Of a stretch of 64,000 nucleotides of DNA, positions 3,939 to 56,076 are shown piece by piece; positions within the stretch are counted from its first letter, which is position 1, and each line of letters opens with the position of its first letter. Source of the stretch: Warburgia ugandensis (lineage: Eukaryota > Streptophyta > Magnoliopsida > Canellales > Canellaceae); contig CP141132.1 in NCBI GenBank assembly GCA_035236585.1, forward strand, positions 25,069,445 through 25,133,444. The letters run 5' to 3'. The notes under the pieces were generated by a model. It saw only the letters and a program-made list of their open reading frames with translations, had not been told where the DNA came from and searched no databases. The translations under genes were made by a program, and so were the position numbers.

Positions 3939-4132
3939 TATAATAACCCCAATTTTTGTAATTGATTGAGAAAATCAATAAAGTTTGAATTTCAGAAATT
4001 TTGGGCTAAAATATTAGGGTTATTTAAAATACACTTCTTATAAAAGTATAATCAATGAATAAGACATGTACAATTGAAATTAAACTTAGCAAACCCTTTA
4101 GAATGACTGTAAGCATGAAAAATTCTGAAATT
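3939..4132 (+). mobile_element. LTR of family C, first segment
   Basis: The LTR starts TATAATAACCCC, a decayed TG terminus, directly after GCACC. Its far end, GGTCGTCACA at 17904, is followed by GCACC again (17905-17909), so this 5-bp duplication brackets the whole C insertion. The start resembles the forward C-like LTR at 57472 (ATAATAACCTCAATTTTTG). It is interrupted after AAATT (4128-4132) by a family D solo LTR and resumes at 6880. Confidence 0.78.
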
Positions 4133-6874
4133 TGTAATGACTCCATTTTTGTACCCTTGAAATCCCATGGAAAGTCCACTTTTTGAGATAAGGGTATTTT
4201 GGTCATTTCACTGTTCACCCTGACTAGACCCAGAAATTTGGTCATGAGAAAGGTACCATTAGGTGTATCTTATAAAAATAAATCCAACAAGACCAAAATC
4301 ACCCAAAACAGAGTTAAAATGAGCAAGTTATGGCCCCTTGAAGTTGAAGGGCAAAATTGTAATTTAATTTAAAAACGAATTTGGCTTGAGAAAACAGAGA
4401 CCCATTTAGATACAAGCACTCCCCTTCTTCCCAAACCTACTGGAGGTTTCTAGAATGGTGGTGCGCAAGGGAGAAACCACAGCCATTCTGGAGGTTTCTC
4501 CACCGCCACTCCATGGCGGTAGAAACCCCCCCCCCCAAAACCCTCTGTAAGCTTTATAAATAGAGCTCTTGGGCACCTCCAATGGCAGCCCAAACCCCTA
4601 GGAAAAATCCATCTTGGAGAAGCAGGCAAGAGGAGAAAACATGGAAAATACCCAGCCATGAACCAGATACGCCTTAAACCACTCCAAACCCATCTCCCCC
4701 TCAATTTTAGGATAAATTTCCCTAAGTTTTTGCATAAAAAACCATGCAAAATAGGGCTCTAGGGAGCCACAACGGACCTAGGGAAGGTGCCTGGGGCGTA
4801 CTGGTTCGACAGGGTTAAACCAGGGCATACCGAGGACGCTCAGGTCACCACGGAATGAAAACATGCCACGTGCGTTAAGGAGAACCCAACGAGCGCGTCC
4901 GTGGACGCGCCCGCAAACGAGAACAGCTAGAGAAGGCCCAGTGCATCTGCAGACGCGCTAGGTGGGACGCGCGCTGCTGACGCAGGACGCGTTAGTGTCT
5001 CGGGCTCCCATCTCGTATGGGTTGTCTATGTACTCTTAATACAAAAACGCCCATAACTTGAGTTCTAGGACTCCAATTGAGGCGCCATGAAAGGCATTGT
5101 GACCGTCTCGACGACACGGACACATTCAAACCATAAAATACCTGATAAAGCTCCTATCTAAGGCTAAAATGACCCTTAAACCATGATAGTAGCATGGGGC
5201 CACTAAACCTTTGCAAACCTGACTATACCAAGGCCCAGTTAGGGACCTTAGGAGGCCCTTAGGCATGGGAATGAACCCTTAATGCCTAAGTAGTGAGGTA
5301 AACTAGTCTAGAATCTATAGAAATAGGCCAAGCTAACCTTTTTCCCCTAAACCATGTCTAGGAACATATGAGGACAAGGGGACTACCGCGATCAAACCAG
5401 GTAGGTGTTCTATCGCTACTAGATTTTTAAAAAGAACCCATGATGTTTTGAGAATGCATGTTTTGAGTCACGGTTGCTTTTCTAATGCATATTTTTAAGT
5501 AACACGTTCTCATGCACATGACCTGCTTAGCATGAATTGATTTCATAAATGAACTTAGCATGCATATGAAAAATACATTGCGCATATATTGCTAAGACAT
5601 GTGTTACATGCATAGACATCTTTTGAAAAAGGATTCTTGTCTACATGATAAGTGTTGCCTTGGCCGATGAGGACAGGCTGATGAGGGCGGGCCAGAGAGA
5701 GCTGACAGGCTTCTAGGCTATCAGGCTTCTAGGCAGGGTTATGACTTTGAATGCGATACTAGCATGAGCAGATTTTATGCATTTCATGCATGGTTTGCAA
5801 CCAAGTGCATAAATTACATGATTTGTGATTATTGAGTTTTTGAATAAATGCATATCCTTGAGGGTTACCAAAAGATGCTGGAGTGCCCAAAAGACGCTGG
5901 GTAGGCAGTTGTGAGGGACCCAAAGAGGACGTGTTTTGAAAAAGAGGTTTTTTGCCTGCTTGATCATATATGATTTGGGCTAGTAAGCTCGTGGGCGCCA
6001 TGATGAGAGGTTTGGGGTGGCCTCCCAGCCTCTACCACTATAGGTGGAAAGAGTACCACGCCAAAAAGGCTTGTCCTTACTTCGATTGCTGAGTCGTAAT
6101 GAGGACTACCATTGGTGTCACGACACCCGATCAAAGTGTCATATGCCCCATGGAGGCTATGATCGAGTGTCCCTAGGTACCCGGGGACCACACGGCAATG
6201 AGGTCGTGGGCATAGTGGGCCCTATGTTTTTGAGGATTTACTTGCATTGCATATGGCATGACATGAGGATGGTCGACCATACCATAGATCCATGAGCTGG
6301 ATTCAGCTGAGCATCTTATGCATATCATATATGTTTATGATATATATGCTACTTTCGACTTGGATTATGCGATTCTTGAAGTTGTCAGTATTCTATTTTG
6401 ACAATGGCTTTCGAACATGAGTGTCCAAACATGCACATGGTTTAAAGAACATATGGTTTTAAAACATAGCATGCATTGCAAAACTAGTAGTGATAGACTC
6501 CTATTAAGTATAGAGTATACTCACCCAATCCTTAACATTTTCAGATACAAGTAAACACTTAAGGACAGGATATACCTGCGACAAAGAACATCCGAATTAA
6601 GTACAAGTAACTAAACCCCTACCTTATCTTTCAGTGAATGTTACTTGATTGTAATTACTCTCTATAGCTGGGGCTGTGACTAACACTTTCTTGGGAATAG
6701 AGTTGATCTAAAACTATGCCATGGCTATATGATTTGAAAATGTGTTTTGACACACGGGGTTTTATACGAAAGATTGCTTTCCAAAACAAAAGATTTTCAT
6801 GCATTTCATATTTCTAAAGGAAGAGCGCTTGCCCTTTTATGAAATTTACATCACATAAAACCCGAGTCGTCACA
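4133..6874 (+). mobile_element. Solo LTR of family D (2742 bp)
   Basis: TGTAATGACTCC opens and GAGTCGTCACA closes this LTR; AAATT duplications sit at 4128-4132 and 6875-6879. No internal domain follows, so it is a solo LTR produced by LTR-LTR recombination. It shares modules with family A: the AAGTTATGG block near 4327, a TATA box, the CCTCCCAGCCTCTACCAC block near 6026 and a pyrimidine-rich ATTTTCAG near 6536. It has two-copy versions of the minisatellites seen at 14181-14340. Several short frames inside it are not genes. Confidence 0.88.
4555..4562 (+). promoter_or_regulatory. TATA box of LTR D
   Basis: TATAAATA lies about 420 bp into the LTR, just downstream of a C-rich run, where an LTR U3 promoter is expected. 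The related LTR at 8409 has TATAAATA at 8869-8876, about 460 bp in, and the inverted LTRs have TATAAAA-like boxes at the same relative place. This is inferred from position and conservation. Confidence 0.6.
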
Positions 6875-8408: not shown

Positions 8409-9278
8409 TGTAATGACCCAACATTTTGTATAAAGAACAAACACAGTGGGATGTACTAATGATCTTGTAACTTGACTATTTTGGAATAAATATATGTTTA
8501 TTACATGTTTAAGGGTCTTATTAGGTGGTTGAATGTTTGATCAAAATTCACATAGGGAACTTAGGAATTTGTGAATAAAATTAGTACCACTAGATACTAC
8601 ACGCAAAATGGAATCCAACGCCTCAAAGAACGACGAAAACGGAGCTCGTATGATGAAGTTATAAGCGTTAGAAGATTGAGGGCATTTTGGTAAAATGTAC
8701 CTAAAAAACGAAAAAGTAAAAAAACAGCAGGGGCCATTTTGATAACGGCACCCCCTGTCTTCTTCCTCCTCTAGCCTTCTCACGATTTCTCCAGAAACCC
8801 TCGGTTTCCAGAGATTTCTACCACCGCCAATGGCAGCACCGCCATTGGCAACACTGCCTTCTTCCCTCTATAAATACCTTCCACCCCTTCTTCCCGAATC
8901 GCGCTTCTCCTTTCTAATTTCTCCCAAAAACAGATCTTGCAATAGGGCTTTGGAGGTGAGTTCAACGCCTCGTTGTGTCACGTGGAGGGCTCCCCAGGTA
9001 CGTCTCTCTTCCCCACGTCATTCTCCTCTCTTTCCCCTCCATTGTCCCTCACAAATCGGGCCAGATCTGGCGTCTCCCGGCCGGAGAACCCATTAGGGAA
9101 GATGGGTTCCTTACAAAACCCTAGGATCAGACAACCAGGCTACCGTTCCAGGCAGCCCGACCTGACTGACCCTCCTTTCCGCCTCATTCCCAGCCCAGAT
9201 CCTTGCCGGATCTAGGAATATTTTTGACCGAAAATCACCAGTCTTTTGGAAAGAGAACCAGACGGGTGTAAACCCGTC

Positions 9279-17909: not shown

Positions 17910-19926
17910 AACAGAGGAAGGACACGACTCAGGCTGCCTGGGTAAGGGCCCTCTATTTCCCTCTCTTCCCTTTCATTTTTCCCCTAGAGTCCAACTGGAT
18001 CTGGGCCAATTTTAGGCCTAAAAACACCAGCTCTCCATGGATGGAAGAAACCAGGCAGGTGGAAAAGTGTCCAAGGCACCATTGTGCATAGGCATCCCAG
18101 GGGTATGGGCGTGCCAGGGTGCACAGTGTGGTCCAGGGGTGCATGGCTTGATGAGCACCCATGCTAAACTCCCTGGGGGTTGTCCTCGTGCCCGCGTCAA
18201 TTGCAAATAGTTTCCTTGGGTCGACCGGGAAGCATGGGACGTCTTGGCAACTGAGGCACCCCGTGGCTACACCAAAGATGCGTATAAGCAACGCCACCCA
18301 GGACACGCGTCATAGCACGTCGCTTAGGTATGCATGTGCATACGAACGCAATCCCTAGCACAACGCCAAAAACCCTGATTAATAAGACTTAAAAAGTTAG
18401 AATCAAGGGATTAATGTAGGTAACTATAAATTCATAAAGTGATCCCTAGAGCCCGACAAATCATATAGATCTAACCTTTGCCCAATGAACCTAGAAATAA
18501 GGTCTAGATCTTATGTTTGAACGTCATTCAGGATACCAAGGTATGCTTGAACTCGAATTGAAGACAAGCACGAGCTAAGTGACAACACATGAGGTAGGTA
18601 GTCTGATACTACTCTGTTTTCAAAATGCATCCCAAATTGAGTTACCTGTTTCTATTCCAATAATTAGTATGTGTTTTTAAACCATACCGTTCTTATACGA
18701 GTTTACGTATTTATAACATTAATTACGGTACTAGCATAAGTAGAGTTTATGCCATGCTCGGATACTTTGAAAATCAATGCATAAATTGCATGATTTATGT
18801 TGATTTGAGATTTGGACTATGTATGTTTTTGGGCTATTGAGCCTAGTGGGCACTATGCTAAGGGGTATGGGTTTGGCCTCCTGGCCTCTACCACTAAAAA
18901 GGCGGATGGTATCGTTACCAAAAATGGCATTGTCCCTTCCGTGACTGCTGTGGTAAACAGGGATGACCACTGAAGGTGTTCATGACACCCTTTCGGGTAC
19001 ATATCCATAGTCGTCGTGGAGGCTATGGTGGACTGGTCTCTGGATACCATAGACACACGATCCAGAGGTGTTCTGGTCGTGAGCGTAGTAGCCCTATGAT
19101 TTCAATGTGATTGATATGCATATAGCATTGAGATGGTCGTATACGAGTACTCATGACCAATTGGCGTGACGTGTATGCCAAGAGACTAATGGGCATGATA
19201 CTAGCATATGCTTGAACGATGACTATTTTAAGAGTTTCATGATTATTATATTTGACTCATTGGTTTGATACATTTGCCGAAATCTTCGTATATGGATCTA
19301 TTGATTTCTATTTCATGATTTTGCTCATATTTATATTGTTGAATACTAGATTATGACAAAGGATTCCATGATTGAAATTGCATCAACAAGCTTATGTTTA
19401 ATACATAACTATGCATGTTTATACAAAAAGAATCACTGATATTTTACATGAAAAGCTCTTAGAATCATGCATGTTGCCTACCGTGTTTTCAAAATAGTAG
19501 TATCAGATCACCTACTGGGTATGAGAAATACTCACCCAAATATATTATTTTTCAAGATAGCTCCACTCACGAGTAGAAGAAGCATCAGGAAATGTTAGTG
19601 CTATGAGTAAGAAAATGAAGAAGAGACAAGTATGAATGTAAGTAAACACTCTACCCTTTCGACATGTATCTGTATTTATTTACAGTTGGGCTATGAGCTG
19701 TGACTGGATAGACCTGGGAATACATTTATGATTTTCAAAATTTTAAAAACTACTTTGGTTGTTGTGAAAGCAAATGACACTCGGGGTATTCAAAATGAGT
19801 TTAAAACAAAATATTTTTCCGCTGCATTGCATTGTTTTTATAAAATGGTTTTCAAATAGGGATGCATCTCGCCCTAGGAATTAGATATTGCATTTAAAAA
19901 TGCATGGGAAAACCCAGGTTGTCACA
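17910..19926 (+). mobile_element. Solo LTR of family A, 3' part
   Basis: This completes the LTR begun at 3237. A GGTAAG splice-donor-like site lies at 17941-17946. The CCTCCTGGCCTCTACCAC block lies near 18877, the near-palindrome GGTCGTATACGAGTACTC at 19135-19158, and TATTTTTCAAG near 19545. It ends GTTGTCACA before ACTAT (19927-19931). No coding potential is seen. Confidence 0.85.
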
Positions 19927-19931
19927 ACTAT

Positions 19932-21042
19932 GGAAGCTATTTTCTTAATAAGACAATTAGTAAAGAAATATAGGGAGAGGAGGAAAGACTTCCACATGGT
20001 TTTTATCGACTTAGAGAAAGCTTATGATATAGTCCCTAGAGAGTTAATAGGGAGGGTGTTGGGTGATAAAGGAGTTTCTCAGGGGTATATAGACATAATT
20101 AAAGATATGTATGCGAGAGTGGTAACAAATGTTAAGACCACTAGTGACGTGACTGGTGATGTTCCTGTCACTGTAGGATTGCACCAAGGATCAGCATTGA
20201 GCCCATGCCTTTTCACATTAGTTATGAATGAGTTAACAAAACATCTGCAGGAGGAGATTCCCTGGTGCATGCTATTTGCAGATAATATAGTCTTACTTGA
20301 TGAGACAAGGGAGGGTGTAAACATAAAGTTGGAGTTATGGAGAGAAGCATTAGAATTTGAAGGATTTAAAATTAGCCAAACTAAGACAGAATATATGAAA
20401 TGTAATTTTAGCAAGGAGAGTAAGAATGGAACACCAGTCAAGATTGATAACCAAGAAGTCCCCATAAAAGACCACTTTCGGTACTTAGGATCAATGATTC
20501 ATGAGAGTGGAGAGATTGAGAGAGAGGTTACCCAGAGAATCCAAGCGAGTTGGAACAAATGGAGATGTGCATCTGGAGTATTGTGTAATCGGTGGGCGCC
20601 CCTCAAACTAAAAGAAAAATTTTATAGGATGGCCATCAGGCTGGCCATGCTTTATGGATCAGAGTGTTGGGCAATTAAGGAACATCATACTCATAGGATG
20701 AGCATCGTAAAAATGAGGATGTTGAGATGGATGAGTGGTAAGACAAGAAAGGATAGAATTAGAAATGAAAATATTAGAGGAAATTTAGGGGTAACACCAA
20801 TAAGTAACAAGATGAGGGAGATTAGACTTAGATGGTTTGGACATGTTCAAAGGAGATCAACAACGGCACCGATTAGAAGGAGTGAGGCAATACAAGTAGA
20901 AGGTTCTAAAAGGGCAAGGGAAAGGCCCAAAAGAACGTGGATAAAAGTGGTGAGGAAAGATTTAAAAATTTTGGGACTAAATGAAGCCATGGTATATAAT
21001 AGAGTGGAATGGAGGAATAAGATTCATGTGGCCGACCCCTAA
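19932..21042 (+). pseudogene. RTE LINE polyprotein, C-terminal part: RT catalytic core and tail
   Basis: About 370 codons are open with no stop, unlike the N-terminal part. RT motif A is HMVFIDLEKAYD (near 20000), motif B is GLHQGSALSPCLF (near 20175), and the catalytic box is FADN at 20275-20286. The usual FADD has lost its second Asp by a GAT-to-AAT type change, so activity is unlikely even in this intact stretch. FRYLGSMIH, GSECWAIK and RMLRWMSG are typical of the RTE C-terminal tail. The tail ends NKIHVADP just before TAA. The frame joins in phase with the upstream half at MPRRST/MEAIF. Confidence 0.9.
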
Positions 21043-25911: not shown

Positions 25912-27915
25912 TAATAAGTGTCTAATTTTTCCTAAAAACCGCTCCATTGGTTACCCATGTGTTATAACTTATAGGGGTAAAATAAGGTTTTTGACCAAAA
26001 TTTATAACACATACATTTTTTATCTAATGATTCAAAAATTTTATATTTTGTAGGTCCAGTGGCTAATTAGAGGTAAGTATTGATTAATCATATTTTTCTA
26101 GTAGGATTTAATTAGAGTTTTGAACTTTTTGTAGGAAGCGAGATAGTGATCTGACAACCGAGATCGATAGAGAAGAAAATAGAAGATCAAGATCAAAAGA
26201 TTGAATCATAGCCAAACAATCATCAATCCAAAGCGAGATAAAAGGTCAAGATCATCTTTAGGATTGCTGATAGATGCAAATAGATGAGCCAAAGGTCCTT
26301 GAAATGGGCCCATACACAAGCCATGCAAAGTCTACCACCTTTGTATGGGTTCCACTTAAGCCACTTAGCCATATTCAAGCCATGAACAAGGTGACATGTT
26401 AAGGAACCAAGCCAACCACCAAATCCAAGGATTGAGCCATCTAAACTAGCCCTGAATCCAAGTGAACAAAACTCTCAAACTTAGCCATCAAGCCACATGA
26501 GATATGCTACAATGAAGGCCATGATTGGAGGAGAACCCAAAGAATCATCATTGAGATTTACAAAGACATATTGAAGATAATTGAGGGACAAGTCATAAGG
26601 ATAAGGTAGCATGTAGACGAATAGGAAGAGACCCCTCCATTTTTTATGTTTTTCCATTTTTTAGAAGTCTTTTTTCTCCCTTTCCACCTCACCACTAAGA
26701 TGCACCACGACTTTCACTTTCCATTCAAGAGTTCTACCTTTCTAAGACTTCTCCACCTTTATAAACTTTCATTCCAACCACCCAACCAATCCCCACTTCT
26801 TGGGAAACTACCTAACCAATTACTCTTCTCCATCTCACCTCTCTTTCCTATCTTTTCCTACCCATCTATCTTCTCCCACCTTATTTTCTCTCTCTTACCT
26901 CATACCAACCAACCACTTTCCATACTCAAATGGGATTCCATGATTTTTGAAGAGGGGGAGATTCCCCTTTCTAAAAAAGTGGTGTCTCCCACCTACATGA
27001 TCCCAAAGGCATCCACTTTGTCCTTCTTTAAAACACTAGCTAACCCATCATATTAGCCATCCAAATTTCTATGTTTTCATCCCCACCATACCTTTATATT
27101 AGGACATCCTAGAAAATATAGGAGAAAAAATATAAAATACCTTCAAAAGACAAAAGTTGCGGCATCTCTCTCTTAGGAGAAAAAGACGCCTCCTTCACTT
27201 TGGGAGGAAGAGGGCGTCCATTTCCTTCCACCTCTTCCATGATGTTTTTTCTTTCAAATTTCTTTCCTTTTGGGTGGTTGCTATCCTTTCAAGTTGGGCT
27301 GTATCTTCCCTAAGTTCTCCATGCCTAGGTCTTGTCAATTAGATCTCTTTTCAAAGGTTAGTTGGTTCCATTTTAAATCATCTCTCTTTGCATGGTCTTA
27401 CCTCCATTGTTGCAAAGTTAATTCTTTTCAATTCCTTTATTCTTCTTTGCATGTTTATTCTAGATCCAAGGTTGTTTTTCCCTTGAAGTGACAACCAAGG
27501 GAAGTCACCTTGAATCTAACCTTCATCCTTGCTCTTCATTGCCCATTTAGATATCCTTTTATTTCATTGATTTTTAGCTTGTTTCCTTAGTGTTTGTTGA
27601 TTGTTGCCTTTATATTCTATTAGATTTTTCTTCAAATCTCCTTAACTTCTTTGCCTATCATTTTCCATCTTTCTCATCTTTTTCCCCCTCTTTTTCCTTA
27701 AATCTCTCTTGGATTATATGCATGTGTGCTTAGGATTGGAATATTGGATTGCATAGAAAAGGATAGACGCAATTTCCTTAGATGTACTTTCATCATTGAA
27801 TGGTGCACACACTCCTTGGATGATGCACGCCACACTTGTACTTAAAATCCATGTGATGAGACAGATGTTTGGTTTATGATTGAAGTTTACTCTCCATTAA
27901 TATTTTATGTGATTT
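25912..27915 (+). mobile_element. 5' LTR of Athila/Tat-like element, first part
   Basis: The LTR starts TAATAAGTGTCTAATTTT, a decayed TG, just after ACTAC. It matches the 3' LTR start at 35417 (TGATAAGTGTCTAATTTTGC) and the LTR at 49092. A reverse-oriented solo LTR interrupts it after GATTT (27911-27915). Short frames at 26646-27500 fall in LTR sequence shared with 41231-41900 and are not genes. Confidence 0.85.
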
Positions 27916-33800: not shown

Positions 33801-35406
33801 AGAAAGTCTCATTAGTCTACATTACCCATTCATCATTTAGGTCTCCTACATTAATATTGAGGATAATATACATGAGATTTCTAAATTTTCTTGTATTTTT
33901 TTATTTTCTAAATATTCAGTCATCATTCAAACTTTAGATTACTAATAGAGTTGCATACAATTTGTTTCACAATTTTATTATGTTTCTAAAGTGTCTCATG
34001 AAAAATTAGACTAGGAATATTAATTCCACAAAATTGTTATATATTTTTTAAGTTTAAGAGAAAAATATAGCTTAAGGATCCTAAAGAAGATTTGTAGAGG
34101 CTTAGAATTCAAGTAAATTTTGAGTCATTCTTCCTTTTTTAAGGGTTATACATAAACTCAAAACTTTCTTCAGTGGACATTAGTTCTTAGTTGGTCTCAC
34201 TATTCTTCATCTTAGCCAATTATTAACAAATCACATAAGACTATACCATATATCTCTTAATTTTATGATAATCATTAAGTTATATGAAACCTAGGAAATG
34301 ATAGGGGCCATCCATGGCAAACCTATAGCCTTTATCCTTCCATACATGATTTTCTCTAGATAGCCTATTGAGATTTAAAAATATAAGCCTTTTTCTTTAT
34401 TAGCCAAATAACCTTTATGTCTATTGAACTCCTATAATATATCCATTACCCATTTGTTTTGCATGGAAAAAGTATGAACAATACAATTCAAGAGATGAAC
34501 ATTAAAAAGGTGAAAAAGGAGAAAAAGTTAAAAATGGCTATATATATAAAGTCAAGCAAAAAAGAAACAAAAGATAGTGATGAAAAAGAAGAATGTTTAC
34601 TCTTGTGAGGAAAAATGGAAAAGTTGTGAATACATTGATAGAAGACCTTTGCATATTTTTCAAACAATCCTTGCTTACCTTTATATCAATTCTTTTAATA
34701 ACCCTTACCCAAGCCTATGTTTCATCCTAATAGAAGCCTTAATTAGATCTTAGGAGAAGTACAGCTTAGAAATGGCTATAAATAAATAAGGAGTTTGGTA
34801 GAGTGTTACATTCTTAGTAGTTGATATCCTATCATGGACCACTATTCCTTCTAAGTTATCATTCTTTTGTATGAAATATGTGAGACTTTTGGACTTGATG
34901 AACACATTCTGCTTACATATTAATGAGAGATTTGACCTTTCTTAGTGATAAATATATCTTTTGAGAATTGAAGTCAAGGCAGAGATTTTGATGGTAATTT
35001 AGGTTATATTTGATGTGAAAACTATAATTATATATTAGTTATAGCACAAATTCACCTTCCAAAGTTTAATAAGATAATGAGATATCTTTAACATAAGGGT
35101 AGAATTTTGAGCCTTTTTATTTATCTCTATAAGTAGGCTAAAGTTAGATGTTTAATATGAGCTAAATAAGAAGAAAATTGTCTCAGATGAATAAAGGACT
35201 TTCATAAAAAATATATATAGAATTTTGTGAATATATTCACTATAAACCCTCACAAGACCTAACTCATCCATCAGGGGTAACCTAGGAGTTCAAGGGCTTA
35301 TTGCATATGCTAAATGCAATTGTTAGTACCTATGAAAGTGTCACTTTATAGTAGTTTATGAAAAATAAATTTTCATGCATTTTGCTCAAGACTAACAAAA
35401 TACTAG
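30804..35406 (+). mobile_element. Internal region of Athila/Tat-like element, non-autonomous
   Basis: About 4.6 kb separate the PBS from the PPT, with no RT, integrase or protease recognisable. The sequence GTGCTTACTAAGAGACAACC near 33769-33788 resembles the GTGCTTGGTGGGAGGCAACC motif common in Athila/Tat elements. The same internal blocks recur at 51771-52327 with 56082-57471, in part at 38570-40098, and as an isolated piece at 59405-59773. It appears to be a derivative that would depend on proteins supplied in trans. Confidence 0.75.
32066..33551 (+). pseudogene. Gag-like remnant of the Athila/Tat-like element
   Basis: From about 32110 a frame reads MDRIDILESQLLRIITSRQA, then a Tyr/Gln/Pro-rich stretch (HYNDYQEYQGQS) with stops. 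From about 32884 a frame rich in Asp and Glu (DEENEASE, VEVNELLDTMLLMN) runs with few stops to 33234, and a last short frame lies at 33345-33551. Composition and place after the PBS suggest a decayed gag, but I recognise no conserved domain. The copy at 56780-57470 shows the same MDR.. ESQLLR start. Confidence 0.45.
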
Positions 35407-35416
35407 TTGGGAGGTG
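35407..35416 (+). promoter_or_regulatory. Polypurine tract of the Athila/Tat-like element
   Basis: TTGGGAGGTG directly precedes the 3' LTR start TGATAAGTGTC at 35417. A parallel tract, TTTGGGGGTA (40099-40108), precedes the related LTR at 40109. Confidence 0.7.
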
Positions 35417-36435
35417 TGATAAGTGTCTAATTTTGCATAAAAACCACTCAATTAGTTACCCATATGTTATAATTAGAGGGGAAATAGGGTTTTAGACCAA
35501 AATTTTTAACACATGAATTTTTTACCTAATGATTAAAAATTCTGACACTTTTTGTAGGTCCAGAAGCTTATTAGAGATAAGTATGTGATTAATCATATTT
35601 TTCAAGGATTTAATTAGATTTTTTAACTTTTTGTAAGAAGCGAGATGTTGATTCGACAACCAAAATCAATTGAGAAGAAAATGAAAGATTAAGATCAAAA
35701 CATTGAGTCAAAGCCTAACAATCATCAATTCAAAGTGAGATCAAAGGTTAAGATCATCTTTAAGATGAGCAATAGATGCAATTAGAGAAGCCAAAGGTGC
35801 TTCTAGTGTCCCATGCACAAGTCACACAAAGTCCACCACCTTTGCATGGGTTCCACTTAAGCCACTTAACCATGAACAAGGCGACAACCTAAGGAGCCAA
35901 GCCAACCACCAAAGCCAAGGTTTGAACTATCAAGCTAAGCTAAGAAAGTCACCTAAGCTAGCCACAAAGCCAAGCCAATAGAGCTCTCAAAGTTAGCCAT
36001 CAAGCCACATAAGCTATGCTATAAGGAAGGTCATAATTGTAGAAGAATCTAAAGAATTATCCTTGAGATTTAAGGAGATATTTTGAAGATAATTGAGGGA
36101 ACATTTATCAGGATAAGGTAGCATGTGGACCAATAGGAAGAGACCCCTCCATTTTTTATGTTTTTCCCACTTTTTTCTCACTTTCCACATCACCACTAAG
36201 ATGCACCATGAATTTCATTTTTCATTCAAGAGTCCTAACTTTCTAAGACTTCTCCACCTTCCTTAACTTTCATTTCAACCAATCCCCACTTCCTAGGAAA
36301 CTACCTAGCCAATTACTTTTCTCCATGTATTTCCTCCCACCTTGTTTTCACTCTCTTACCTCATTCCAACCAACCATTTTCCATATTTCAAAGAAGATTC
36401 CATGATTTTTGAAAGGGGAGATTCACTATCCTAAA
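35417..36435 (+). mobile_element. 3' LTR of Athila/Tat-like element, first part
   Basis: TGATAAGTGTCTAATTTTGC and the following kilobase match the 5' LTR at 25912-26950, ending in GGGGAGATTC. It is interrupted after CTAAA at 36435 by a B-like LTR start. The LTR appears to resume at about 41231 with CCTACATGCATTCC, matching 26994 onward. Together the parts make about 2.7 kb. Confidence 0.78.
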
Positions 36436-37340
36436 TATAACAACCCCAAAATTTCATTATTCCATGATTGGGTTATGAGCTTTCAAGCGATATATTTTTT
36501 TTATAAAAGTCTAATTTGGAATTAAAACTAAAACTGTTAGATAGTACTCAAAAAATGCAATCCAACGAGTTAAAGAACGTTGAAAACAGAGTCCATATGA
36601 AGTAGTTATAGGCCTTTGAAGTCAGGAGCAATACGATAATTAAAAGATTAAAAAAAAAAAAAACTTAATGGAAGAGGGGCCAAATTGATATTAGCAGCCC
36701 CCCACCCCCCTCACATTAGAAACTCGACAAAATGTCAGGTCTAGTTTTCTCTTTTCCTTCGTTCTTCTCTCTCATCTCTCCAACCTCCTCTGATCAGATC
36801 TCCTTGCTTACCGGTTCCGCAGAAATGCAGAAGAAAAAGGGAAAAAGAAAACCCTAATTGACATCCAAATTCAAACCTAACTCAAACCATGATTTCATTG
36901 TAAACTGGGGAGAGATTCAATTCTAAATCCTCTCTTTCGTTCTAACTCTTCAAAATCAGGTATTTTTCAATCTCTTCTCCTATATAGGGTTTGGCCAAAT
37001 GAGGGGAGTTTTCTTCTAGTGATCAAGGATCTTATAGCTGTTTTAAGGTTTTGTGAGTGGAAGTGAGCATGTAAAGAAGGTTTGAGATTAGCTTTTTCAT
37101 CTCTCATTCATTCCAATCAGAAAAATTGAATCTGTACAGGAGTTTCATGGCATTTCCTTGCTAGATCTATGAGAAATTGATCAGCATATTCTCTAAGCAT
37201 TGTTGCAGATCTTTTCTTTTCTTATTGTAATCTTTGATTTGTTCATATGTTTCCAACAACCTGATTTCCAGCTTCTTTAGTTTGCATAGCTTGAGATCTC
37301 CCCATGTTCTTTACATTCCTTTCTAATCTATCAGTTTTAG
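36436..37340 (+). mobile_element. 5' part of a family B-like LTR
   Basis: TATAACAACCCCAAAATTTC, the ATTCCATGATTGGGTTATGAG-like sequence and CAAAAAATGCAATCCAACGAG match the minus-strand start of the B LTR at 52333-56076. Similarity is clear to about 36650 and fades after the CCCCCCA stretch near 36700. AAATCAGGTATTTTTC near 36955 resembles a splice donor, and TCTATCAGTTTTAG (37327-37340) an acceptor. No B-type 3' end is seen before 41230, so this LTR seems truncated or recombined. Confidence 0.6.
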
Positions 37341-38009
37341 TTGTGAGTGCTCTTTCATTACAATGGGCATGGAGTGCCAAAGCCTAATGTAAATGGTGAA
37401 ATTTGGATTTTTAATAAGAGTTATACACAGCACATTCACTTGCTAGTCAACGACCTCAATTCCAGGATGAAGACATCGTACATATATGAATTTGATTGCT
37501 CTGCTGAGGGGATGATTGTCAATGCCTTTACAAAGAGGCAAGAGTGGGGTTCTTCATCTTCAATGAAGGACTGCATTTTGCTTGCTAACTACAAAGAATT
37601 TGAGACTCTACCCCAAAGTGCAAAGTTTCCTACTAATGTTTTCACATCCTGTCTCACAACGCCAATAAAAATGGCATTATGATGGTTTAGCACTCGTTCA
37701 TTACTTTGTGATTCCCTCGACCCTGCTCTTGTAGACAAAATTCCTGGGCATCAAAATGACTAGAAAACTCTTGTTGGAGAGCTGAACTGGATCTTCATAG
37801 TAGTAACTGATACAATTTCTTAGAATGTCTTTCCACATTATTTGTTTCAGAGGTTAATCAGGCAGGATCTGTTGGTTGCTAGTTTCTTCCGAAATTTCTT
37901 ACTTGTTGAGTAGATTATGCAAGCTTCTTATTGTTCTCCAGTTTCATTTCCAATGCTTCCTTCAACTTATCAGCACCATATGTGGGATGTCTAGGATGTG
38001 GCTATTGAA
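37341..38009 (+). pseudogene. RAPTOR (TOR complex 1 subunit) fragment, intronless, in-frame stops
   Basis: The frame [20 protein letters not shown] opens the fragment. [68 protein letters not shown] and YQHHMWDV follow. These match the N-terminal conserved caspase-like region of plant RAPTOR (about 220 of roughly 1350 residues). RAPTOR presents substrates to TOR kinase in the cytosol. Upstream of 37347 the match stops. Five stops (after MAL, at QND/K, TIS/N, LVE/I and WDV/D) all fit single transitions in Arg or Trp codons, with no frameshift. No intron is visible, which suggests capture from RNA. It is not functional and runs straight into ATP synthase beta sequence. Confidence 0.88.
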
Positions 38010-38265
38010 GTGTCTGCTTTGCTTGGTCATATCCCATCTCCTATTGGCTACCAACCAACTTTGGCTATTGATCTTGGAGGCTTGAAAGAACGTATTACCA
38101 CCACAAAGAAGGGTTCTATTACCTTAGTCTAGGCTATTTATGTGCTTGTTGATGACTTGACAAATCCAGCTCCTGTAACCACCTTTGCCCATTTAGATGG
38201 CAACGACATTCATGCCAGAATTAGTTCCCCAATGAAAATCTATCCATGCTGGGAAATAGAAAATG
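38007..38265 (+). pseudogene. ATP synthase F1 beta subunit fragment fused to RAPTOR fragment
   Basis: [20 protein letters not shown], then [17 protein letters not shown], then [16 protein letters not shown] match the mitochondrial-type beta subunit downstream of its Walker B region. The normal protein holds the catalytic nucleotide sites of F1. The frame is shared with the RAPTOR piece, and the join lies at 38004-38009 (GCTATTGAA). One stop is at 38129-38131. After FAHLD an extra base shifts the frame; the following ATPB sequence (a DATT-like run, then IYP) is still traceable to about 38265. About 90 residues are represented. Confidence 0.85.
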
Positions 38266-38307
38266 ACATGCATTGTGAGAATCCTTCACTGATGTCTATG
38301 AAATCAT

Positions 38308-38506
38308 TATACACATATTAGTTTACCTAGGAATCTGTTCTTTGACGGATTCACTAATGGTTGTTAGCATAAAAATCATTAATATTGCAATAAAGCTTGG
38401 AATAGAGGGAATAAAGCAAGTTGCTTATCCTAAAACATGTTTTGTTCTTTTTGTTGCTATAGTAGTTGTGTGCATTCTAACTCAATTGAATTACCTGAAT
38501 AATATT
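38308..38506 (+). pseudogene. NIPA-type magnesium transporter fragment
   Basis: The frame [20 protein letters not shown], then KQVAYPKTCFVLFVAIVVVC and ILTQLNYLN, matches plant NIPA family proteins. In these a VYIGICSLVGSLSVMSIKA-type segment is followed by the helix ending in TQLNYLNKALD. NIPA proteins are polytopic membrane proteins linked to Mg2+ transport. Here only about 65 residues remain, covering about two membrane helices. The match ends abruptly after LNYLN. It is in the same orientation as the RAPTOR and ATPB pieces but in a different frame; the 40 bp between are unassigned. Confidence 0.75.
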
Positions 38507-38569
38507 AAAGTGCATGGTTTCTCATGAAGAAGAGGGCAATTAAACTAGTGGAATCCAATGAATGTGTAG
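38507..38569. other. Short unassigned joint
   Basis: Sequence between the NIPA match and recognisable Athila-like internal DNA. A frame KKRAIKLVESNECVDAQRDF can be read but I do not recognise it. Confidence 0.3.
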
Positions 38570-40108
38570 ATGCACAGAGAGATTTTGAATTTTCTTGAGT
38601 TTTTTTTTTTTTAATTTTGAAAACTAGAGTTCCCTTACTGTGATGAGAACTAGATGTTCAAAATGTAGTAAATATACTATTTTCACCTCTTAATAGAAAT
38701 GCATATGATTAGTTTTGCATATCATTCATGTATGGAAGCATTTTATGAAAGTTAATTCTCAGAAAACAATTACACATAGCACATAATCAAGACTAATATA
38801 GAGGTATGACTTAGAGACCTTGAAGAAAACCAGTGGAGACCTATAACCTAGTGAAACTTTGAGACTATCTTCTTTTAGAGAGTTATGAGTAATTCCACAC
38901 TTTCTTTGGCATACATAAATTAATGTGATCCTGTTATTGTTGTTTTAGTTAAACATCAAGAATAAATAGGAGTAATAGCTTTAATTCCAGAAATTTAGTG
39001 AATCTGATAGGATTTAGGAAACCTAGGAAATGACATAGGCCATCCTTGCTTATCCTAGAGACATAAAGCTTACCTAATATAGTATACCACTAGTTAGCCT
39101 TTTGAGCCTGTTATTAAGATTTTCTTTCTTAACCCCATTCACCTTAACCTAGAATAACCTAGTAAAATAAATGACCACTACCCATCTTCAAAATGAGTAA
39201 AGTAGAAAAAAAATTCAAAAATAGGACAAAAAGTAAAGAAGTGAGAAAAATTAGCTATCTTTCTTCCAAAGAAGAAAAAAAAAAAACAAAATTTGAAAGA
39301 GAAATTCACTACGAGCACAAACCCAAAAGAAAAGTTGTCCTAACAGATATTCATTGAAGACATCTACTCAATTTTGAACCTTCGAAATCTTTATACCCTT
39401 TTTTTCTAAACCTATCCTAAGCCTACATTTCATCCTAGTTAAAGACCTATTGATCTTAGGTGGACATAGCCTTAAAGAGGAGATAAAAAGAAAGAATTAA
39501 GGTAAAAGACCCATATATTCTTAGTGTTAACATCCACTCCTAGGGATCACTTTCCTTTGTCTCATGAGCATTTAAAAGAATTATGTGAACCATTAACTTG
39601 TTTGATTTGGTCACATAATGAGAGAAATATGTTAAAACCCCTTATTTGAGAGTTTTATTTCTAAGCATATACTTGTGAGGATTTGAGGTCAAGGCATATT
39701 TCCAATGGAATGTAAGCATATCTAGTTAAAAGTCAAGATTTATGTGGCTATACACACACATATGCACTTTGAGAAACAGCTCAAATAGGATGTCTTTAAT
39801 ATGTGTATGATATGTAAAAGTGTTAAATCTTCTTCATTAAGTTGTGAAAAATTAGTAAAATTGCAACTGAATGAGGATTCTATGAGATAAATTAGAGAAC
39901 TCGACCTTATTGAATTTTGTGGGTATATTCACTGCAAACCCTCCCGAGGAAAAACTCATCCACTAAGGGTAACCTAGAGGTTCAAGGGCTTGTTGCATGT
40001 GCTAAATGCAATCGTGAGTATCTACAAAAGTGGCACATTGTACCAGTTTTTGTAAAATAGTTTTTTGCATATTTTGCTCTAGACTAGCAAAATGTTGGTT
40101 TGGGGGTA
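38570..40108 (+). mobile_element. 3' internal end of a second Athila-like element
   Basis: From GAGATTTTGAATTTTCTTGA onward it parallels 33868-35406 in order. Shared landmarks are TTCTTTGGCATACATAA versus TTCTTCAGTGGACATTAG, ACCTAGGAAATGACATAGGC versus ACCTAGGAAATGATAGGGGC, and CCTACATTTCATCCTAGTT. It ends with TTCAAGGGCTTGTTGC, AGACTAGCAAAATG and a PPT (TTTGGGGGTA). The host gene chimera ends just upstream, so the captured fragments sit where internal coding sequence would be. No protein is seen. Confidence 0.68.
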
Positions 40109-41230
40109 TGTTAAGTGTTTAATTTTGGCTAAAAGACCACTATTTTAGCATTTAATTAAACCATCTAACTCATTAATTTGGTAATTTTTTGGATAAAATA
40201 TAAAAATTAGTTCAAATTGACCATCCAACCGTAAATTGTCAAAATTAGTGGTCGATGATCAATTGAGCTAAGTGGATTCTTAATGTATGATTTAGATGAC
40301 TCTAATCTAGTCTTTTGTTTTATAGATCAACTAAAGGAGGGTTGGATGGCTTAGATCTAATTTCAATAGATCAAATCAATTTGAAGATCATTAAGGCAAG
40401 GGATGAAGGGTTTCTAAAAGAAGAAGGTTTCCTAATGGAAGAGAAGTCCTAATTTCGAAGAGGAGAAACTTTCCTAATAGGAATCTACCTCTTCAAGGAA
40501 AGAGTTTGAGGAAAATAAGGAAGTGGAAAGATTATAAAGAGGGGGAACCGTAGGGGAGTTTGGGGAGTTTCTGCAATTTTATTTGGAGTGTTACTTTCTT
40601 GCTTTCATCGTCACTTATACTTCCAATTTTTTTCTCTAAACCTTTAACATCCATTCCTTATTATGTCCTCAACCTAGATCACCATTAGCTTTGCTTCCAC
40701 TACACCCATCTCTTCTTCAGTCCATCTGCTTCACCACATCAACCCAGATCCCCATCTCTGTTCACGTTCTCCTCCTCCCTTGATCTCTCACTTATATCTA
40801 TCTCACATTACAAACCCAACTTTCCTCCATTCACTGCTCATCCCATCTCATGCACCTATCTAATTTTTTCAATACCCAGGCTCATCTTCCCTATTCTCCT
40901 CCTCATGAATTGCTTTCACCATCACCCAAAACCCAGCTCCATCCCCATCACCCACTTTCCCTTGTTTGCCTGACTCCCAATTCATCGCACCACCTTTTCC
41001 CCCCAGCCCATCTCCATGGCCCTCTTCATCCACCTCATCGGACGAGCTACCACTGGTCACACGGCTATACCAAAGATGCCCCATACCTCTACCCTTCTTT
41101 TATATTCCCTTCCTCCTCTGCTCCATGCCTCTCTTGATTGGCTATGTTCCAGATGACGCCCAGAAAGGGAGTTGTTTTTCTCCTACTGGAAGAGCAACCA
41201 ACGGCCTGGCACCCATCTCTCCAGAGCCAT
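40109..41230 (+). mobile_element. 5' part of an LTR with divergent U3
   Basis: TGTTAAGTGTTTAATTTTGG follows the PPT and resembles the Athila LTR start (TGATAAGTGTCTAATTTTGC). The next kilobase, including GATTATAAAGAGGGGGAACC near 40530 and a C-rich pyrimidine stretch, is unlike 25912-26990. Proline/serine-rich frames at 40850-41283 come from this C-rich DNA and have no domain. At about 41231 the sequence becomes the shared Athila LTR downstream half. This marks either insertion into the resident LTR or recombination between LTRs. Confidence 0.55.
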
Positions 41231-42906
41231 CCGACCTACATGCATTCCAAAGGCATCCACTTTGTCCTCATTTAAATACCTAACCCATCATCTTAGCCAT
41301 CCAAATTCTTTTGTTTTCATCCCCATCATACCTTTATCTTAGGTTGCCCTAGAAAATATAGGAGAAAAAATATAAAAGACCATAAAAAAACAAAAGTTGA
41401 GGCATTTCTCCCTTGGGAGGAAAAAGATTTCTCCTTCACTTTGGAGGAGGGCAGCCTTTTCCTTCCACCTTTTCCATGATCTTTTTGTTTTGAACTTTCT
41501 TTCCTTTGGGTGGTTGCTATCCTTCCAAGGTGGGCTGCATCTTCCCCAAGTGTTCCATGCCTAGATCTTGTCAATTAGATGTCTTTCCAAAGGTTTGTTG
41601 GTTCCCTTTTAAATCATCTCTCTTTTCTTGATCTTACTCCCATTGTTGCATAGTTAACTCTTTTCAATTCATTTCTTCTTATTTGCTTCTTTATTCAAGA
41701 TCCAAGGTTATTTCTCCCTTGAAGTGACAGCCAAGGGAAGTCACCTTTAATCTAATCCTTGTCCTTGTTCTTCATTGCCCATTTAGATCTCATTTTGTTT
41801 CATTGATCTTTAGCTTGTTTCGTTAGTGTTCTTTGATTGTTGCCTTTATATTCTATTAGATTTTCCCTTGAATCTCCTTAAGTTTCTTGCCTATCTTTTT
41901 CCTTCTTTCTCATCTTTTTCCCCCTCTTTTTCCATAGATCTCTCTTGGATTAGATGCATGCTTGCTTAGGATTGGAATATTGGATTGCATAGAAGAAGAT
42001 ATAATCAATTTATTTAGGTGTATTTTGATTGTAGAAAGATGTGCACACTCATTGGATGATGAGCACCACACTTGTACCTAAAATCCATGTAATGAGATTG
42101 AGGTTTGGTTTATGATTGAAGTTTACTTTTCATGAATGTTTTATGTGATTTAAATCCAATTTTTCTTGGATGTTTAATTCAATTTTTCATGTTCAACTCC
42201 ATACATAATTCACTTTAGATTAGTTGCTATATTAATTTTGCATTTAAGAAACATACCATGATTCCATGCACACATCACCATGTGTCATGTGCATGGTCTT
42301 AAAGTGTGATTCTTTCGAAAGTTGCATGTTTTGATTAGAGTTTCATGCTTTAGTTGAGATAACTTCATGCATTCCATGCTAGCCTAGTTTGCACTTTAAT
42401 ATAAGTATGCTTTCCATGCTTCATATGCATATTCTCTCCATCATTATGTTCATGCAAAAATTTCATACTCCATATGCACCATGTTTTTTTTTTTCTTTTT
42501 TTGCATGATTTGTTTAGTTCATGTTAAGAGTAGTTCTTCATGGCTTAGATTTAGTTAGATGCTAAGGTAGTTTTTATTGTTTCCATTCTTAGTTTTTTAG
42601 AAAGTTTTAATTTTAAAAAGTATTAATTTTAGGAAGATTTTATTTAGGAAAGTTTTATTTTTAGAAAGTGTGATTTAGGAAAGTTATTAATTTTAGCATA
42701 TTTTAAGTTTGAACATAATTTCCATCTTCATGTGTTAATTTCCATTTTTAATTTAGGAAAAGATATCTCGAATTTGGCTAGGTTAGATAATTTAAAGTAG
42801 GGACCACTAGTATTACAATTGTTTGATTCCTAATGGGATTGACCTCCTCATGTGAATTACTACAACTTATCAGTGCACTTATGATTTTTAACTTAAAATC
42901 ACAACA
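41231..42906 (+). mobile_element. 3' LTR of Athila/Tat-like element, second part
   Basis: CCTACATGCATTCCAAAGGC to ATCACAACA matches the 5' LTR (26994-27915, 30463-30777). It ends at 42906 before ACTAC (42907-42911), the duplicate of 25907-25911. This right border proves that the LTR end belongs to the element inserted at 25912. Confidence 0.82.
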
Positions 42907-42911
42907 ACTAC

Positions 42912-52332: not shown

Positions 52333-55300
52333 TATGACACCCCGAGTTTTTCATGAAAATTTTTCACGCTTATTTCAAAAGGTGGCTCACCTCTAAATTT
52401 TAAAATACAAAAATAGTGGAAGATTTTTCTTTGAAATTCATTTTTCCAAAAACTCAGATGTCACCTTTATACTCACACTATACATCTATATATACATATA
52501 TATATATATAGTTTTCTAGATAGCAATTCATTTCTTAAAATAGGACCCATCTTGTAGTTCACTCGTATAGCCCATATAGCATTTTATTAAATGCCCAATA
52601 TCACAATTCAAATGACTAATTACACAATACAAAAGCTTTAATAAAATGTATACCTAAGTGCAGAAGTATAGTTGCTGGATTCCTCATCTTGTCTACATCT
52701 TCTCCTGTCTATCTATATCTAGGATATTGTAAACATAAAACATTTACAATATCTCAGCAAGCTATGCTTGGTAGGGGAGTTTAAGAAGCATGCTAAATCT
52801 TAAGATACATTAATTATTCCATATTAATTAGAATATTCATTTTCATAGCAATTTTATTGAATGGGATTTACTGTATGTTTTACATTTCAATAATCCATTT
52901 ATAAACCAAATATCTACATGTTTCATAATCATTAACAATCCATTGATGAATCAATTATTAACATGTTTCATAATTATCTATATCTGCATGTTTCATAATT
53001 ATAAGTAATCCATTGATTTATCAAACATCTTTAATTATTATTTGTTACCTAAATAAACTAATCTAATTCTATGAACCATACTTTGCATAACAGTTCTACC
53101 CATTCATATATCGATATAAAACTTATATGAAACTACGCACTCAATCATATACATATAGCAAATGTACACATATATGGAAATTGTAAAAAGACATACAAAA
53201 TTATGAATATAATCAATATCATCTAATTTACATTCCCAAACTATACTAGGTTTCAAAATCATACCCCTCATCATGTGAGGTTCATAATCATCCACCCTCT
53301 GCTAGTATATCAATATAAACCTCATGCCCCTCACTATACGGGGTCCACAATCCTCCATCCATTGCTAGGAAAACAATATAAGGCATATCATCATGCCATA
53401 TCATATAAGGCATCTCATAATGCCATCATATAAGCACCATAGTGCATCAAATATAAGGACTACTGTGCTGTAGTCTGATCCGTACTAGCATGCTCAGATA
53501 ACTACTTTCATACTCCATGGATACCAAGTGTGGAAAATCCTTTACATCATGTCTATATGGGTAGACAGACCATCACAGTGGTGGCCTTCACATATTGCCC
53601 CACTCGACATTTTGCCTCTCTTTGGGAACGGTATCATCATATATATCACATTTCAAAGAGCAGGTGGCCAAACCTTACTACTCTCCTAGCATAGCATCCC
53701 CAGGCCTAAGCCTGTCTAAAACAAAACTCTCAGGCCACCATGCCCAGATGTAAAATAATCAAAATAGCAAGCAATTCGCCTATTCATATATTTCATAACA
53801 AAAATAACATCCTCACTTATTTGGTGATAACCCACTAAGGATGTATCATATAAACCTAGAGTCATACATCATCAATACTGACATGGTACCCATGTACCAT
53901 AAACATAATTTCATAATTCACATACATGATGTACAAGTCATAAGCATTAATTATAACATGCAATTCTTTTAATTAACATTATTTTCATCATTACAATTTA
54001 AAACATGTTGAATACCAATTATACCATTTTAGTTTCACAACATCCATAATTAGAAATAAGATCACTTTTAGAACATGCATCTTATTATTTAGACATGTCA
54101 TCTTAAGTTTTCACTTACCTCGCGTGACGCATTCATCAGATTCCACTAGCTTTAATCGCCCTCTTCTTCATGATCGACCATGTGTGCTTCAATTTATTCA
54201 ATGCATAAAAACTCTTTTCTTAATACATTCACATACACAGAGATATTTAGATTTAATTATGATCATAATTTTAAGAATTTGATGCAATCCAAGGCCTAGA
54301 TCATCCTTATCGAATCTTTACAAGGACAATCAAGACTCGTGTGAGTTGATCAGGGCTTCTGTTGATGTCTATCCTTAGTGTAGGGTTGAGATCTACGATT
54401 GGATCTGTGTGGATATCTAAATTGTGTTTTCCATCAGATTACATGGTCAAATTTAACTAATTTAAGGGTCTACATTGGTCGGATAGACCATTTCCAGCTT
54501 TGGATCGATGATCAAAACTCATCTGTGGGGTCTGATCGTCGATTCGACTTCAGCCAGTCACTATTTGAATAGTGATAGATAGGACGGCTAAGGTTTCCTG
54601 ATAGGTTTTCGTCCAAATTACACCATTCTAGTCACATCCTAACTAATTCAGGGTCATAAGATTCATTCATGGCATCTGATCATCGATCAGATATCAAGAA
54701 GTTATTGTTTAAACGGTAATAGATTGAACGGTCTAGATTGTCAAATCTATTTTCTAGCACATATAACAAATTCAGTCAAATATAACTTCTCTCAAGTATA
54801 GATCTATCCATTACTAAACATGGATTAATAATTCAATGGTTGAATTATCACTTAAACCAAGATTTCAAATAAAATGATACAGATTTAGCAAAATTCAACA
54901 AATCAAGAATAGGGTTCCACAAGTCTTACCTTTATAGTGTGTTTCCAGGCTTCCTCCACCCTTGGATGAGCCGAATTGACCTTAATTTCAGTTGAACCCT
55001 CCCCAATCTCTTCGCATAGTAGTTTCCCCCCTTAATCGACAGCTTAAATCCTCCCAGATCTCATCATAACCATGGGCTTCATGTTCTCATAGGCCAGTCG
55101 TAGAAGATGACTGGCTCAGATCAAGGATCTAAGCTACCGTAATCTCCGGCGATGGCCTGCAAACTCCGACCATCTACCAAACCCCGGTTTCCTCCTCCGA
55201 TCGTAGCAAAACCAAAGGGCTTTTGCCCTAAACTTTGAGGCAAGCAAGGTGGGGGGGTTCATATCTAAAATTCGAGACCCCAATTATCACCGACGAGCTT

Positions 55301-56076
55301 CTCATCTTTCGATGATATGGAAACTCCCCAAAACCCCTTTTTCTTCTTCTTCTCCAACAGGCCTACACTTCTCTAGCATGCAAGTTGCCTTTTCCCCTTT
55401 TTTTCCTCTCTTCTCCTTCCTCTTCCCTCTTCATCTTCTTCCCCCTCTCTTCTTTCCCATTTTCTCTTCCTCCACATCGAGTTCTGTTGGGTTTTGGGAA
55501 TAGACCTAAGTTGATTCCCTACATTTCCCTTAAGTGGGGGGTGCCGTTATCAAATGTGCCCAACCTTTTGTTATTTAAATTTTGTTTTCCTTTATTTATT
55601 TTAAAGTTTCATAATGGTGTTTTTACTATTCTAAACACCATGATATCATTCAAAGAAATGGTAAGACATACTAATGATGTTTTTCAACTCCATTGACTAT
55701 CACATTCCAACTCCTGCAAGTAGTACTGAAATAATCTTTTGTAAGAAAATTATCATTTATTCGTCCAATCTCTGATTTAAACAAACTTAGTGTCATTGGA
55801 TTCGTATCAACAAGTAGAATCCACATTTGATCATTTAAATTTCCAAGTTATAAGTTTTTTTTTTAACTTTTAATTATTAAAATAGCCCTGACTTCAAAGT
55901 CCCATAACTTCCTCATTCGGACTTTGTTTTCAGTGTTCTTTGGCTCCTTGGATTCCATTTTTTGAGTATTATCAAATGGTTTTAGTTTTAGGCTCAAATT
56001 ATTATCTTATTAAAAGATATACTTCTTGAAAACTCATAACCTAATCATGGAATAGTAAAATTTTAGGGTTGTTACA
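52333..56076 (-). mobile_element. Solo LTR of family B, inverted (3744 bp)
   Basis: ATAGT at 52328-52332 and 56077-56081 is the target duplication, and host sequence reads through continuously once the LTR is removed. On the minus strand it runs from TGTAACAACCCTAAAATTTT (56076) to CCCCGAGTGTCATA-like sequence at 52333, where the CA terminus is decayed. It shares with family C the hairpin at 52719-52757, the CATAGCATCCCCAGGCCTAAG block and the ATACCAAGTG/GTACTAGCATGCTC block. A TATAAAGGTAAGAC donor-like site lies near 54925-54945 (minus). No gene is seen inside. Confidence 0.9.

Follow-up and report, generated by a model that had tools for sequence, protein, structure and literature searches.

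Pieces of spliced RAPTOR, ATP synthase beta, and NIPA mRNAs within a long terminal repeat family of Warburgia ugandensis

A 64,000-nucleotide (nt) stretch of the Warburgia ugandensis genome (GenBank assembly GCA_035236585.1, contig CP141132.1, positions 25,069,445 to 25,133,444 of the forward strand; here, the window) carries pieces of the genes for RAPTOR, mitochondrial-type ATP synthase beta (ATPB), and a NIPA magnesium transporter, which lie side by side at 37345 to 38487, all on the plus strand and without introns. The captured pieces derive from spliced mRNA, and the array that they form is part of a long terminal repeat (LTR), which at several loci is framed by 5-bp target duplications. 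In the window, one decayed copy of this LTR is cut short and abuts unrelated Athila-like DNA. The array very probably arose by serial template switching in the course of reverse transcription, after which the LTR was amplified. A sequence-only reading of this DNA had proposed that a retroelement gathered spliced mRNAs by template switching and moved them as a unit. The missing introns and the LTR copies support this proposal; we infer the switching itself, which is favored because of identities of 7 to 9 nt at two joins and because single-gene forms hold longer pieces. The array, its LTR, and a related LTR in the window comprise the following features:

36436 to 38578, plus strand: 5'-complete, 3'-truncated LTR holding the gene pieces (start as in the sister LTRs and LTR D; Athila-like homology from 38579)
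36436 to 36660, plus strand: LTR start block, U3-like, common to chimera-free LTRs (80% to window positions 55855 to 56074, opposite strand)
36661 to 37344, plus strand: leader module of the structural class (partly common to copies L026 and L027; the last ~95 nt also in L021)
37345 to 38003, plus strand: RAPTOR cDNA fragment, pseudogenized, residues ~195 to 419 (Pfam, PDB, and spliced alignment to the gene on contig C10)
38003 to 38193, plus strand: ATP synthase beta cDNA fragment, mitochondrial type (Pfam, PDB, and alignment to the gene on contig C12)
38194 to 38304, plus strand: segment 4, captured, coding-like in cleaner copies (comparison of copies)
38305 to 38487, plus strand: NIPA magnesium transporter cDNA fragment (PF05653 and alignment to the gene on contig C4)
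38481 to 38571, plus strand: LTR block after NIPA (join in TGAATAA)
52334 to 56076, minus strand: chimera-free solo LTR of the same family (LTR D), with matching flanks (target duplication)

The protein similarities and their order on one strand, as originally proposed, are real. A Pfam search with the window fusion matched Raptor_N (PF14538; E value, 1.2e-20), Mg_trans_NIPA (PF05653; 5.5e-14), and ATP-synt_ab (PF00006; 7.7e-07, at 29.4 bits slightly below the 29.5 cut-off). Among PDB sequences, the RAPTOR piece matched RAPTOR1 (5wbi; E value, 1.6e-44) over the whole 111 amino acids, and the top match of the ATPB piece was an ATP synthase beta chain (2.6e-15). Residue numbers of RAPTOR are approximate and follow the Arabidopsis protein. 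The ATPB piece had been assigned to the right family at about 90 residues, but ATPB proper spans only ~64 codons (~38003 to 38193); the remainder is segment 4 (~110 nt, up to ~38304), a fourth component that the three-part description, correct as to its three genes, had overlooked. Segment 4 has neither a Pfam nor a PDB match. RAPTOR and ATPB have one frame in common, with six stops in the window copy, and NIPA lies in a different frame. Codon-position rates were calculated from 8, 20, 16, and 16 copies of the four blocks, after rows that were weakly aligned or covered <80% of a block had been dropped. Selection on the fused frame is rejected, given the absence of a third-codon-position excess in the RAPTOR, ATPB, and NIPA blocks and the six stops in the window. 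There is thus no sign of coding constraint on the array after its burst of amplification.

Parent-like genes in the same genome supplied the test for splicing. RAPTOR genes are located on contigs C10 and C14, and parent-like ATPB genes are located at C11:12207428-12208480 and C12:50347085-50348120; the parent-like NIPA gene on C4 was the closest among four genes compared. In a spliced alignment with the C10 gene, which was used for the comparison, the window RAPTOR piece is identical at 577 of 658 nt and lacks five introns of that gene (93, 152, 1030, 917, and 84 bp), with GT-AG borders. The window NIPA piece (148 of 172 nt identical) likewise lacks the 138-bp intron of the C4 gene, again at a GT-AG border. 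The window ATPB piece (169 of 181 nt identical to the C12 gene) falls within one exon, because 66 nt carrying the exon junction have been deleted, so that the intron test for ATPB rests on sister copies L030 and L027. In L030 (228 of 237 nt identical), the 91-bp intron of the C12 gene is absent at a GT-AG border, and the same site, which holds a 107-bp intron in the C11 gene, is closed in L027 as well. The deletion, which lies between two short GCTGAAGTCTGC-like repeats at the RAPTOR-ATPB join, occurs in the window copy and six others (L021 to L025 and L032), and the 66 nt are kept in ten copies. Seven RAPTOR introns are absent from the RAPTOR-only copy L028, in which the border letters at the first and seventh are mutated. 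Because parental introns are absent at splice borders, the RAPTOR, ATPB, and NIPA pieces come from spliced mRNA. The impression that the window pieces have no visible introns thus holds for RAPTOR and NIPA against genes of the same genome and, through L030 and L027, for ATPB; comparison of exon-exon junctions with the species' own genes revealed no retained intron. The loss of several RAPTOR introns is consistent with the description of Arabidopsis RAPTOR1B, in passages of one report, as a gene of 23 exons encoding 1,344 residues (PMC1131892).

Searching the genome (1.12 Gb in 14 contigs) led to the identification of at least 52 matches to window positions 37341 to 38510, which we ourselves grouped into at least 39 loci (40 of 248 candidates scored); the fusion is therefore not a one-off. 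An assembly artifact is rejected in view of these loci and of five different target duplications. Among the loci listed, 5 have RAPTOR from about residue 195 to 200 joined to ATPB and NIPA, 14 start later in RAPTOR (4 from query position 267, 2 from 431, and 8 from 524), 3 start inside ATPB (position 720 or 799), and 13 start at 854 to 857, i.e., at the ATPB-segment 4 join; 4 of the 39 contain RAPTOR only. A search with segment 4, NIPA, and the LTR block yielded at least 40 matches (40 of 366 candidates scored), all 40 of which span segment 4, NIPA, and the greater part of the LTR block, suggesting that the 13 loci starting at 854 to 857 also lie in the LTR. Pairwise distances of 0.07 to 0.13 in ATPB and NIPA (15 copies) argue for one old burst. 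The first RAPTOR piece gave 20 pattern matches in viral contigs and 36 in prokaryote genomes, none of which was confirmed. A plasmid search returned 26 records with 60 to 80% identity, of which 5 listed lie under the ATPB part, 3 of these being annotated as ATP synthase beta. Uninterrupted ATPB-like stretches with 65 to 78% identity were also noted at C6:79500970, C6:79678448, C2:27970650, and other sites; our guess is that these are probably nuclear copies of chloroplast atpB.

The further copies with LTR flanks that had been predicted were found. We fetched 20 records, in which L025 and L026 represent a single copy split by an insertion and which do not include the loci starting at 854 to 857. 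The LTR start block is present in 17 of the 20 (not in L022, L025, or L034), and the LTR block directly follows NIPA in all 16 copies with a complete NIPA piece, including the window copy. In the window, self-comparison revealed that 36436 to 36660 and 38496 to 38567 recur in the same order in the chimera-free LTR D, on the opposite strand. A related LTR family in the window, E, ends with CCCGGGTCGTCACA, followed by the primer-site-like GTTGGTATCCAAGC; because primer-site-like sequence follows the end of this family, the direction is fixed, and an LTR in plus orientation begins at 36436. The alternative of a minus-strand LTR for the left repeat is rejected on the same ground.

An LTR end could be placed in 13 of the 20 records and in D. 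Of the 10 loci with both ends placed, which include the RAPTOR-only L029, 5 have perfect 5-bp target duplications: L021 (GTTAT), L033 (AAGAT), L036 (TAAAC), L037 (CAACC), and L038 (CTAAG). The search tolerated small shifts, and all five fit at a start shift of 0 and an end shift of 0 or 1. These five array-bearing LTRs are complete, at 3950 to 4445 bp; the window copy lacks the LTR 3' end. Two further LTRs run into primer-site sequence, TGGTATTAGAG in L022 and TGGTATCAGAGCC in L035 (also given as TGGTATCAGAG), which we take to be of the tRNA-iMet type; their internal sequences have ~1.06 kb in common at 89%. In six LTRs (L028, L029, L031, L036b, D, and L038), the LTR block that follows the array, or the equivalent block, terminates in a donor-like GAG followed by GTAGGTGG or in a variant, namely GAG followed by GAAAGTGG in L031 and by GTAAGTG in D. 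Judged by its letters, this motif is a candidate splice donor. Self-comparison of the records also revealed shorter repeats in L023, L024, L025, L028, and L033; in the last of these, LTR stretch 4256 to 4457 recurs at 8447 to 8648 (oriented), 4.2 kb downstream, at 91%.

Forms with a single gene hold more of that gene than the arrays do. RAPTOR-only copies L028, L029, and L031 include the RAPTOR start codon and 5'-untranslated-region-like sequence and extend from the start codon region to residue ~460 to 471, beyond the fusion point; RAPTOR stops there at PIVLQ, where an exon of the gene also ends, and the GTGA that comes next is likewise found in the gene's intron. At L050, the sole NIPA-only locus fetched, NIPA extends farther in the 5' direction and, by eye, across one more spliced junction; the NIPA-LTR join is the same, and the later LTR parts are present. 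The NIPA fragment gave at least 154 matches when 150 of 287 candidates were scored; by eye, >100 of the rows listed fall on one interval. NIPA therefore seems to be the most repeated piece, the LTR context having been checked for L050 and the array copies. A fragment that recurs in so many listed rows is a trap for gene annotation.

The joins can be read against the parent-like genes. At the RAPTOR-ATPB join, the RAPTOR gene reads TTATTGATTGACAACCC, the C11 ATPB gene CTCTTCATTGACAACATT, and the C12 ATPB gene ...ATTGACAATATT; the copies read TTATTCATTGACAACATT (L030) and ...ATTGACAATATT (L027, also given as ...GACAATATT). The stretch ATTGACAAC is common to RAPTOR and ATPB, with nine letters identical to C11 and eight to C12. 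Immediately 5' of it stands an ATPB-type C, which fits a switch during 3'-to-5' copying, although it could be a mutation. At the NIPA-LTR join, NIPA CTGAATAA (CTGAATAAG) and LTR D TTGAATAAATTGAAGC (TTGAATAAA) have the seven letters TGAATAA in common. The ATPB-segment 4 join falls at letters that, in the C12 gene, are GCAACGAC-like.

Short identities are also a mark of end-joining repair, and we considered whether cDNA pieces were used as filler DNA in one master LTR during double-strand break repair and then spread by ordinary retrotransposition. The NIPA-LTR join is identical in all 16 array copies compared, and because they have it in common, one founding event suffices for it. All identified pieces are, however, in the sense orientation relative to the LTR, several additions were made at one LTR interval, and the single-gene forms hold longer pieces, so that we consider this origin unlikely. 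More improbable still is a chimeric retrogene made by template jumping of a long interspersed nuclear element (LINE) that was inserted in the LTR and hitchhiked with it, for which there is precedent in the tripartite chimeric retrogenes of LINE type described in a fungus, according to passages of PMC2104539. The 16 copies have no poly(A) tail at the NIPA-LTR join, where LTR sequence adjoins directly at TGAATAA (no search was made for a duplication flanking the array within the LTR). Helitrons, Pack-MULEs, and other DNA transposons often carry several gene fragments, but such captures of genomic DNA retain introns, whereas this array lacks introns at splice borders, two of 1030 and 917 bp among them, and the unit that moves is bounded by LTR ends with 5-bp duplications; we regard capture by a DNA transposon as refuted by the splice evidence.

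Under serial template switching, reverse transcriptase, while making minus-strand DNA inside the virus-like particle, would jump at short identities from the element RNA to host mRNAs packaged with it. It would copy NIPA first, then the segment 4 RNA and ATPB, and then RAPTOR or a RAPTOR-bearing sister RNA, before returning to LTR sequence. A burst of array-bearing elements, ~7 to 13% apart today, would have spread the array; LTR-LTR recombination would have left solo LTRs, and a later deletion or repair event would have joined the window copy to Athila DNA at 38578/38579. The series of classes fits stepwise replacement of the 5' side, in an order that we infer. It is possible, if somewhat doubtful, that the LTR trapped host mRNAs repeatedly at one fixed entry site, each new RNA being added 5' of the earlier piece, just upstream of the conserved donor-like block, perhaps because strong-stop cDNA misprimes on such RNAs during first-strand transfer. 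The surviving steps would then be the NIPA-only, segment 4 plus NIPA, RAPTOR-only, and full arrays, and the captured sequence would have become part of the LTR leader in successful lineages.

Several observations weigh against template switching followed by LTR amplification. Because the load sits in the LTR, the array should reach both ends of the element at each later round; no array was seen in both LTRs of one element among these copies, and self-comparison of the 20 fetched records revealed no LTR pair bracketing an array. The 10 kb downstream of L035, which has a primer-binding site (PBS), contain two short LTR pieces only and no array, and the second LTR near L036 (L036b) differs in being chimera-free. 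No Pfam domain, gag and reverse transcriptase included, was detected in the ~2.8 to 2.9 kb behind the PBS of L035 and L022. Target duplications were not found at five of the ten loci (L023, L027, L029, L035, and L040), which is expected for L035 because a PBS comes after its LTR. Of the five duplication-bearing loci, three have an LTR start of TA rather than TG (TG in two), and only three have an LTR end of CA (not L021 or L033). Where RAPTOR starts later, every class has a leader of its own 5' of RAPTOR: a Pfam search identified no reliable gene in those of L038, L023, and L032, nor in the L028 leader or inside the chimera-free LTRs D and L036b, the lone match among all of these being FOP_dimer (E value, 0.041), under its cut-off. 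At L050, no LTR start occurs within 2.3 kb before NIPA. A tree built from 20 copies has a star-like shape and weak support and does not reveal in which order the pieces were acquired. The 66-nt deletion is present in classes 195, 282, and 336 and therefore needs recombination between classes or recurrence.

The flanks of the window copy consist of Athila-like sequence:

35416 to 36435, plus strand: Athila-like LTR, first half, adjoining the start of the chimeric LTR (78% to 25914 to 26975)
38579 to 40111, plus strand: Athila-like internal 3' end, an unrelated flank, with an LTR start at ~40112 after it (collinear with 33874 to 35415)

The Athila-like 3' end that had been described on the right is present but incidental; Athila-like DNA meets the array at 38579 because the array-bearing LTR is cut off at 38578. 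The LTR start described on the left belongs to no neighboring element: the LTR that begins at 36436 is the one with the fusion inside, and the location of the pieces inside the LTR itself had been missed. From its appearance, the LTR family is putatively that of a Ty3 Tekay/Del-like chromovirus. LTR D, which carries matching flanks of 5 to 7 bp, lies close to where the LTR and the internal region of an Athila-like element meet. The Athila-like LTR B (35416 to 36435) stops at a position corresponding to 26975 of reference LTR A, and the LTR at 41230 resumes A at 26987. It looks as if the Athila-like LTR (35416 to 36435 and 40112 to 42907) was opened at the Tekay-like insertion and refilled by one-sided strand invasion from another element. 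Elsewhere in the window, 19885 to 21042 is a long open frame that we presume to encode a plant RTE-type LINE reverse transcriptase.

Placing the load in the promoter-holding LTR means that it should be duplicated at each round of retrotransposition, and partial forms persist in one genome. Because matching genes and their introns are at hand, RNA-to-RNA switch sites are directly readable, and chimera building by plant reverse transcriptases becomes testable. Scattered gene fragments, such as those of RAPTOR, may mislead annotation or, speculatively, feed small-RNA silencing. To our knowledge, gene capture by LTR elements has mostly been described for genes located between the LTRs. Maize Bs1 reportedly carries its host pieces in its internal region, where they are joined to the open reading frame of the element; here, in contrast, the pieces lie within the bounds of the LTR itself, dozens of loci have them, and single-gene forms survive.

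As far as the passages of the cited reports go, the array resembles several known systems in part. The Bs1 LTR retroelement transduced fragments of three host genes (PMC13317346) and is similar in that one LTR element holds pieces of several host genes, which in our case are pieces of spliced mRNA. BARE-2 of barley and the Veju terminal-repeat retrotransposons in miniature of wheat acquired foreign sequence via abnormal template switching, BARE-2 into its LTR (PMC13317346, PMC1950507), but the foreign part is another retrotransposon in BARE-2 and an unknown DNA sequence in Veju, whereas here it consists of host mRNAs. Cassandra, Helenus, and Ajax contain host-derived small RNA gene sequence, and Cassandra is like the array in that its LTR holds the host part, which is 5S rRNA-like (PMC10853983, PMC10886601); these are small RNA genes, whereas the identified pieces of the array are protein-gene cDNA. 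LTR elements of rice, sorghum, and maize carry host genes, and the passages describe none inside the LTR itself (PMC3726574), where the array is located. In the tripartite chimeric pseudogene of Magnaporthe grisea, several transcripts are joined directly, which was interpreted as double template jumps (PMC2104539), but by LINE machinery, whereas the array is in an LTR. Within these sources, Bs1 is nearest in content, BARE-2 in route, and Cassandra in place. We found no report combining those three features in the literature on captures within LTRs, most subscription papers lying outside our coverage, and an array of mRNA pieces within the LTR itself looks new.
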